NCBI GenBank assembly: GCA_026986255.1
Contig: JALSOX010000021.1
Span: 1 to 10,134 of the forward strand
Length of the DNA stretch: 10,134 nt
Reading direction: 5' to 3'
DNA from: Desulfurococcales archaeon
GTDB taxonomy: Archaea > Thermoproteota > Thermoprotei_A > Sulfolobales > NBVN01
Each line of letters starts with the position of its first letter. Within the stretch, counting starts at the first letter, position 1. Under the pieces are notes generated by a model, which saw nothing but the letters and a program-made list of their open reading frames with translations, was not told the origin of the DNA and ran no database searches. Below are positions 5,568 through 6,920 of this stretch, one piece after another. Made by a program: the position numbers and the translations under genes.

Positions 5568-6620
5568 TCAGACTTTGCTTTCTAAGCTCACATAAATTAC
5601 CTTAGGTGCCTGCTCAGGCACCCATTTAGGCGGCCTCACCGGCCATCGCAGTACGAGTGGGCGTTTAGGTGTTCCCTGCACACTCCCCTTAACAACGATG
5701 TAGTCAGTCCTTAGGAGGCCATAATGTGGGAATGCACTTACCGGCGTGAACTCGCGCAGGATCTTCTCCGTCTCCTCAGCGGGCTTATCGCTTACTATTC
5801 TCATAGCTATGATTCTCTTATTATATTCTGTCCTCCTGTGCATGCCCATCTGGCCAGCCTGCGGCACAGGGCTAATCGCGCCGATGCCGGGGCTCCTGGC
5901 ACCTATCCTTCTTGATCCTTTCCTTTGTTTATTCCATTTAGGTAGCTCCTTGACGCCGAACCTTTTCACTACGCCTTGGAATCCTTTACCCTTAGTTACT
6001 CCTATTACGTCTATGAACTGACCTTCATGAAACACGTCTGAAATCTTTAAGGGGTTCCCGAGGATGTTTAACGCGTACTGCACTTGATCCTCTACGCTTC
6101 CTCCACCCACCTTGACCTCCACGATGTCAGGAACCTTCTTGCTGAGGCCCCCAGTTAACCGTGGTTGCGACGCCAGAATTAAGGAAACCCTAGCAACATA
6201 ATCCCTATTATTCTCTAGCTTCCTACGTGCCTTCTCAACGCTCTCTTCACTCACCCTCAACGATTTTATCCTTCGCTTTATCTGGAGCTCCTCGGGGGGC
6301 TGCGTCCAGACCTCCGTAAGTGTCCGTAACCCACCCACGGTTGCTTCATAGAATCTCGCCGCAACAGGGATCATTGGAGGGGTCTCAATCACGGTTACTG
6401 GAACAAATACTTCCTTCCCGTACGTTGGTGCACCAGGTCTATCATCAATCATTATTATGTGGGTCATCCCAACCTTGTAACCTAAGAATCCCAGGGGTTT
6501 GGGCTCATCGAAGTTTACCTCCGGCCAAGTCTTCACTCTAGGCACAAACTTGGAGGCCCTCTTCCTAGGCCTTACCCCTAAGCTACCTCTACGTGGCGCT
6601 GAGTGCTTCCGTCGTGCCAT
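5568..6620 (-). CDS. rpl3: 50S ribosomal protein L3 (uL3)
   Basis: A 350-aa archaeal uL3 of usual length, which nucleates 50S assembly and reaches toward the peptidyl transferase centre. The start MARRKHSAPRRGSL (1-14) and GFLGYKVGMTHI (44-55) are typical. The rRNA-contacting extension is seen as GVTKGKGFQGVVKRFGV (207-223), then WNKQRKGSRRIGARSPG and GQMGMHRRTEYNKRI (256-270). Many archaeal L3 proteins have Trp where this one has Phe in GKGFQG and KRFGV. The ATG at 6620 is immediately preceded by GGAGGT (6621-6626), with a second GGAGGT at 6635-6640. No in-frame upstream start is possible because a TAG intervenes. L3 opens the L3-L4-L23-L2 operon and is divergent from a small plus-strand gene. 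Confidence 0.97.
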   Translation of the reverse strand: MARRKHSAPRRGSLGVRPRKRASKFVPRVKTWPEVNFDEPKPLGFLGYKVGMTHIIMIDDRPGAPTYGKEVFVPVTVIETPPMIPVAARFYEATVGGLRTLTEVWTQPPEELQIKRRIKSLRVSEESVEKARRKLENNRDYVARVSLILASQPRLTGGLSKKVPDIVEVKVGGGSVEDQVQYALNILGNPLKISDVFHEGQFIDVIGVTKGKGFQGVVKRFGVKELPKWNKQRKGSRRIGARSPGIGAISPVPQAGQMGMHRRTEYNKRIIAMRIVSDKPAEETEKILREFTPVSAFPHYGLLRTDYIVVKGSVQGTPKRPLVLRWPVRPPKWVPEQAPKVIYVSLESKV

Positions 6621-6690: not shown

Positions 6691-6749
6691 TTGTGTCAGC
6701 CTATGTCCCTACATCACCCGTCAGAACTCGGCAAACACATCATTCACTC
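6691..6749 (-). ncRNA. C/D box guide sRNA (2'-O-methylation guide) upstream of L3
   Basis: The minus strand carries all four boxes of an archaeal double-guide sRNA in the right order and spacing: C box ATGATGT (6737-6743), a 12-base guide GTTTGCCGAGTT, D' box CTGA (6721-6724), a 3-base CGG spacer, C' box GTGATGT (6711-6717), an 11-base guide AGGGACATAGG, and D box CTGA (6696-6699). A short GTG/CAC pairing outside C and D (6745-6747 with 6693-6695) can close the kink-turn. Both C boxes end in T instead of the commoner A, which archaeal C and C' boxes tolerate. Such RNAs bind L7Ae, Nop5 and fibrillarin and direct ribose methylation of rRNA or tRNA at the fifth base from D/D'. A possible TATA element (TTATTACC, about 6773-6780) is suitably placed for its own promoter. 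Box architecture is seen directly; expression is inferred. Confidence 0.82.
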
Positions 6750-6758
6750 TCACACTTA

Positions 6759-6795
6759 CCTTAATTAAGGCAGGTAATAAGCTATGAGAGGAGGT
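6759..6795 (+). promoter_or_regulatory. Promoter and Shine-Dalgarno site of the 38-aa gene
   Basis: CTTAATTAA (6758-6766) is a reasonable TATA element, predicting transcription from about 6788. GGAGGT (6790-6795) is a full-strength ribosome site eight bases before ATG 6804. An ATG at 6784 upstream opens only a four-codon frame (ending in TAG) and would largely be left out of the transcript. Confidence 0.45.
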
Positions 6796-6803
6796 TAGCA
6801 GGA

Positions 6804-6920
6804 ATGGGAGGACGTCAGAGAACAACGTTATTCATGGGTGTTGGTGGAATAAAGGAAGAAAAGAAGAAGGAGCAGGAGAAAGGCAAACAAAAAGGTAAGG
6901 GTAAGAAAAAGAAAAGGTAA
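6804..6920 (+). CDS. Small lysine-rich basic protein (38 aa), unrecognised
   Basis: My translation from ATG 6804 gives 38 residues. It starts MGGRQRTTLFMGVGGI, continues EEKKKEQEKGKQKGKG and ends KKKKR before TAA. About a third of the residues are lysine. The gene is supported by a perfect GGAGGT at 6790-6795 with eight-base spacing, by a TATA candidate upstream, and by its place between divergent ribosomal genes. I do not recognise the full protein. The MGG start followed by a Lys/Glu-rich stretch recalls the disordered N-terminal region of crenarchaeal S25e, but the winged-helix domain that defines S25e is absent and not found in any frame after the stop. A nucleic-acid or ribosome-binding role is plausible from charge and context only. 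A T5 tract follows the stop. Confidence 0.65.
   Translation: MGGRQRTTLFMGVGGIKEEKKKEQEKGKQKGKGKKKKR

Follow-up and report, generated by a model that had tools for sequence, protein, structure and literature searches.

The spacer upstream of uL3 in this Desulfurococcales archaeon raises the question of whether it encodes a small guide RNA and, if so, whether that RNA belongs to the leader of the L3 transcript. The original prediction, made on the window (the whole stretch of 10,134 nucleotides analysed here), was that a C/D box guide RNA lies in the leader region of the L3 operon, where it would couple rRNA modification to the supply of ribosomal protein. From the sequence comparisons described below, we consider it highly probable that the feature is the gene of an archaeal C/D box sRNA of an ordinary, known kind, with one guide for 23S rRNA. 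The parts of the locus are listed in Table 1.

Table 1. Features in and around the uL3 upstream spacer, in positions of the window.
Feature	Position	Strand	Remarks
uL3 gene (archaeal 50S ribosomal protein L3)	5568..6620	-	PF00297; TIGR03626 and NF003261 above cut-off
Motif GGTAGTGGTGTGGAGGT, directly before the uL3 start	6637-6621	-	similar motifs in relatives
TATA-like TTTAAA	6659..6664	-	between the sRNA and uL3
C/D box sRNA gene, about 55 nt	6693..6747	-	predicted ends, from the possible terminal stem GUG to CAC
Flanks GTG and CAC	6747-6745 and 6695-6693	-	able to pair; possible 3-bp terminal stem GUG/CAC
C box ATGATGT	6743-6737	-	read from sequence
D' guide GTTTGCCGAGTT, 12 nt	6736-6725	-	predicted pairing partner: 23S AACUCGGCAAA
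D' box CTGA	6724-6721	-	read from sequence
D'-C' gap CGG, 3 nt	6720-6718	-	
C' box GTGATGT	6717-6711	-	read from sequence
D guide AGGGACATAGG, 11 nt	6710-6700	-	orphan (no target found)
D box CTGA	6699-6696	-	read from sequence
Palindrome TTAATTAA	6761..6768	.	centred some 22 nt ahead of the C box; putatively for the sRNA or the divergent 38-aa ORF
TATA-like TTATTA	6775..6780	-	candidate promoter of the sRNA, centred some 34 nt ahead of the C box
Small basic lysine-rich ORF, 38 aa, divergent from uL3	6804..6920	+	context

We identified the four boxes C, D', C' and D on the minus strand in the order originally predicted, and the predicted lengths (guides of 12 and 11 nucleotides, D'-C' gap of 3) are correct by sequence reading. 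The compact archaeal geometry, the location in noncoding DNA and the strand shared with L3 are likewise supported. The further claim, that the array lies between divergent ribosomal genes, is imprecise: the nearest divergent frames are the 38-aa ORF and a gene for a PF02598 putative RNA methyltransferase, and the ribosomal S19 gene comes only third. Near the ends of the array, AUGAUGU and CUGA correspond to the consensus C box (RUGAUGA) and D box (CUGA), the last base of both the C and the C' box being T where the consensus has A; internally, CUGA, 3 nt and GUGAUGU provide the D' and C' boxes.

The box array exceeds chance expectation. On both strands of the window, this array was the sole site matched by a loose box regular expression. 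Of 500 sequences resampled from the window with a first-order Markov model, 2 contained any such site, and a tight expression found none in 500; both expressions were composed after the site had been seen. Among the 22 L3-adjacent cases described below, the D'-C' gap ranges from 2 to 14 nt, and the C box is ATGATG or GTGATG in every case, TGATG having been demanded by the search pattern in most of them. The possible terminal stem has three pairs in the window clade and four in L005, the most distant of the five relatives retrieved through uL3 (see below). Across the same 22 cases, own flanks formed 1.86 pairs compared with 1.29 for swapped flanks at the best of three offsets; the other two offsets gave 1.14 compared with 0.94, and 0.27 compared with 0.32.

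A scan of contigs with uL3 yielded five loci, all from Desulfurococcales archaeon MAGs, with uL3 identities of 95, 95, 95, 93 and 79%. The four boxes upstream of uL3 are kept in all five. As these relatives were retrieved without using the RNA, they constitute the cleanest evidence of conservation. In L005 (uL3 identity 79%), the core TTTGCCGAGT is unchanged, and changes are seen in the D guide and in the D'-C' gap.

Across 197 genomes of the order, which are a draw from a larger group, a search pattern made up of a C-type box, the guide core and a D-type box occurs in 51 genomes and the reversed pattern in 3. A loose four-box array is present at 44 of the 51 pattern places; it is absent at seven (G048, G182, G072, G041, G099, G173 and G187), some of which may be chance or decayed sites. 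Coordinates and tblastn place 20 of the 51 upstream of uL3 on the same strand. The uL3 gene was found in 182 of the 197 genomes, and its upstream region was read in 120 of them plus the window, a non-random set in which 20 regions were brought in by the pattern and five stretches are shorter than 330 bases. Same-strand upstream arrays with the guide of the window or its variant (G106, AAAGCCGAGT) number 22 of 121, window included, with one (L062) overlooked by the box regular expression and counted via its guide. In G083 (1 of 121), the array upstream of uL3 is on the opposite strand. A box-only scan of the 98 regions upstream of uL3 without a pattern hit there gave one array, that of G106, whose D' guide has GCCGAGT in common with that of the window; the scan of these 98 regions turned up no L3-adjacent array whose D' guide is unrelated. 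An array at L3 is absent from most of the order. The prediction had been made dependent on relatives not keeping the region while losing the boxes: it withstood this in the five relatives retrieved through uL3, but further out the refuting situation did arise, with an array in only one of the 98 regions.

What the conserved guide may do is suggested by its complementarity to ribosomal RNA. In 6 of 6 genomes scored (G004, G046, G159, G145, G135 and G076), a stretch of 11-12 bases in the D' guide complements AACUCGGCAAA in the genome's own 23S rRNA, with a Watson-Crick pair at N+5; an LSU was found in 1 of 5 and 5 of 17 genomes, so that the match was scored in a minority of the L3-adjacent genomes. 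G004, the nearest genome with a 23S, stands in for the window's own genome; this bin is mixed and also contains two bacterial 23S genes, and we used its single archaeal LSU. On G004 rRNA, the score of the window's D' guide was equalled by 0 of 300 shuffles and that of the L005 guide was matched by 22 of 300. The second-best 23S site in G076 (12 bases, 3 G-U) scored 9.75 compared with 10.25 at the expected site, and an 11-base match of the D' guide to a tRNA-Thr, with three G-U pairs, was equalled by 19 of 200 shuffles. The predicted methylated C aligns with position 1672 of E. coli rrlB, there an A. The target string itself is present in 11 of 28 genomes given, a count that is no proof of conservation, as the 17 negatives include many genomes in which no LSU was found. 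The archaeal 23S gene of G004 (L006) is 3694 bases long compared with a 2987-position model, and perhaps contains introns.

We propose an RNA of about 55 nt that would assemble with L7Ae, Nop5 and fibrillarin, pair through its D' guide with 23S rRNA at AACUCGGCAAA, and direct 2'-O-methylation to the C located five bases away from the D' box, the equivalent of E. coli A1672. The boxes, their spacing, their recurrence in relatives and the complementarity to 23S sequences are observed; expression, the protein complex and methylation would follow by analogy with the known family. The sRNA most likely guides one methyl group onto ribosomal RNA.

We take the D guide to be either an orphan or in the course of degenerating. 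Among 16 one-per-clade sRNAs, the mean identity of the last 8 nt is 0.92 before D' and 0.30 before D, the D' value being partly by construction, since the pattern used to retrieve most of the L3-adjacent set prescribes the guide core. The low identity before D shows that the D guide is free to change. We detected no partner beyond shuffles for the D guide in the 23S and 16S rRNA of G004 (150 of 300 shuffles as good) or among 61 tRNA sequences with 37 anticodons from G002 (180 of 200 as good). The D guide of G046 matches its own 16S rRNA over 10 bases, a match that 18 of 300 shuffles equalled on G004 rRNA and that is absent for the window. The D target string gave 59 matches in five genomes compared with 70 for the reversed pattern; ARAGORN identified no tRNA in the 30 of these 59 matches that became loci. 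The D guide of G106 contains TCTCCCGAAGT, the exact complement of ACTTCGGGAGA, which is located about 20 bases past the D' target in several 23S sequences (the 23S of G106 itself was not found). This complementarity suggests that a double guide for two neighbouring 23S sites may be the older state. The sRNA is a likely case of a two-guide RNA in which one guide is held and the other drifts. In L054 (G083), the guide core precedes the D box, not D', and the order in L055 (G017) is similar; the guide halves are swapped.

To ask whether this RNA belongs to the L3 leader is to ask where the two transcripts begin. A TATA-like hexamer is present at -62..-30 of the uL3 start, between the sRNA and L3, in 22 of 22 L3-adjacent cases (shuffled mean 3.0, maximum 10). 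Relative to the C box, 17 of 22 cases have one at -45..-18 (shuffles: mean 2.9, maximum 7); the hexamer list was our own, made after reading the sequences, and the shuffles preserve base composition only. Since the hexamer precedes uL3 in every case, the L3 mRNA likely starts downstream of the sRNA, which speaks against the predicted location in the leader. The result for the C box is less clean, because the palindrome TTAATTAA in the window may serve the divergent 38-aa ORF; TTATTA, 34 bases off, fits the sRNA better than this palindrome. We suggest that the sRNA gene is probably served by a start region of its own and situated upstream of the L3 promoter, and that the sRNA is probably not an L3 leader element.

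Alternatively, the sRNA may be part of the L3 mRNA leader, with one transcript, begun at the start region ahead of the sRNA, processed to both RNAs, thereby tying the supply of guide to L3. The two share a strand, the C box is 123 bases from the L3 ATG in the window, and adjacency is found in 17 of 20 rows of the window clade. No T-run was seen after the D box in the window sequence, which is compatible with read-through into L3 and processing, and 11 potential snoRNAs within 5' UTRs of T. kodakarensis are described in the accessible text of PMC4247193. Against this stand the TATA-like box between the sRNA and L3 in all 22 cases, the inconstant spacing (106 to 267 bases) and the location of the sRNA away from L3 in G016, G063 and G082 of the same clade, and we regard a shared leader transcript as rather unlikely. 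According to the part of PMC7994747 available, a TATA-like motif is found in only about 20% of archaeal C/D genes and most ride on neighbouring transcripts, so neither an own promoter nor co-transcription would be unusual.

The history of the adjacency was traced on a FastTree phylogeny of uL3 (120 rows; the short row L056 was dropped), on which the L3-adjacent label changes 5 times compared with a shuffled mean of 20.5. The window clade (20 rows, support 99) comprises the 17 L3-adjacent rows and the three genomes, G016, G063 and G082, with the sRNA elsewhere. In G016, G063 and G112, the genes away from L3 have a D guide that keeps the GGGAC core of the window, and this common core makes it very likely that they carry the same sRNA at another place. 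There (L199, L200 and L213), the sRNA sits between two reading frames; those of G016 resemble, from their translations, a methyltransferase and a seryl-tRNA synthetase, and frames of like size flank the sRNA in G063 and G112. Pattern matches away from L3 have neighbours of several kinds, with no rule visible in ORF translations read by eye. A tblastn search with seven window proteins against 18 non-L3 loci gave one match, to the 38-aa ORF in G082.

We propose that some lines of the order inherited the place beside L3 and that in others it would have been lost or shifted. The adjacency has the look of a lineage trait, not of an obligate coupling. The idea of a coupling to ribosomal protein supply loses support in that 31 of the 51 pattern places do not show the window's arrangement, upstream of uL3 and on its strand, although the seven of the 51 without a four-box array may be chance matches. 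Conservation of a position next to a ribosomal protein gene does not by itself imply a leader RNA.

The 38-aa ORF was recognized by tblastn in 18 of 30 loci. In G082, it is located near the sRNA (25 aa at 68%), with uL3 on another contig. Searches gave no PDB match up to E 10 and no NCBIfam match up to E 1, and the ORF may be an unannotated small protein gene. Possibly, the sRNA shares its start with the 38-aa gene and feeds into L3, such that a guide modifying 23S rRNA, a structural protein of the same ribosomal subunit and the small basic 38-aa protein would be made together. Such a coupling, which we nevertheless consider improbable, would have left its traces in the long-kept neighbourhood and in G082, in which the 38-aa gene stays with the sRNA and L3 does not. 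The spacer also carries the motif that directly precedes the uL3 start: a GTGGTG-like string occurs within 30 bases of this start in 38 of 120 regions, compared with 1 of 116 control pieces further upstream. Genome-wide recurrence of the uL3 leader motif found no support (9 matches in 6 of 23 genomes, 4 for the reversed pattern); by coordinates, six of nine matches of a related uL3-motif pattern are directly before uL3.

The boxes could also form a kink-turn that acts in cis, bound by L7Ae and controlling L3 translation, with no guide role in trans. There is a precedent in S. acidocaldarius, in which L7Ae regulates its own mRNA via a k-turn in the 5' UTR, as reported in the accessible portion of PMC5539422. 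A guide would be superfluous in such an element, yet the D' guide complements 23S rRNA in all six genomes scored, L005 keeps the D' guide while its D guide has changed, and guide and boxes are also found away from L3. We therefore judge a purely cis-acting element very improbable, and return to the reading as a C/D box guide RNA gene.

In an Rfam scan of the window, the array stretch scored 29.5 bits with RF00095 (snoPyro_CD; E 0.0063, gathering score 45), 28 bits with RF01150 (sR11; E 0.061, gathering score 39) and 20.6 bits with RF01312 (sR9; E 2.2, gathering score 36), so that none of the three reached its gathering score. These scores could be cited for a chance resemblance within an AT-rich spacer, an explanation that we dismiss almost entirely, as it is already contradicted by the comparative data, in which the same boxes and guide recur ahead of uL3 in 20 further genomes, and by the resampling, with arrays in just 0-2 of 500 resamples.

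Among the Rfam families, snoPyro_CD gives the top score, with the boxes and terminal stem aligned, but its guides are unlike those of the window and 29.5 bits compare with the 45 needed. The alignment to sR11 spans the whole model, and UUUGCC.AG of the D' guide is common to both; the D guide and part of the D' guide are unlike, and the score is 28 bits compared with the required 39. The available text of PMC7994747 reports that the neighbourhood and promoters of archaeal C/D box sRNAs vary and that orphan guides are on record among them. This sRNA, its 23S site and its adjacency to uL3 are not mentioned in the main text available for PMC7994747 and PMC4644070, whose supplementary tables may list it, and the accessible parts of the literature on D box sRNAs and ribosomal protein L3 in archaea do not describe the arrangement. 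Compared with the archaeal C/D box sRNAs treated in the available portions of PMC7994747 and PMC4644070 (a 489-member set), the window sRNA shows no difference of kind that we could find. It shares with them the C, D', C' and D boxes and guides of 11-12 nt, as well as the short D'-C' gap and an rRNA target predicted by the N+5 rule, and it adds to them one well-supported guide RNA with a predicted 23S methylation site.
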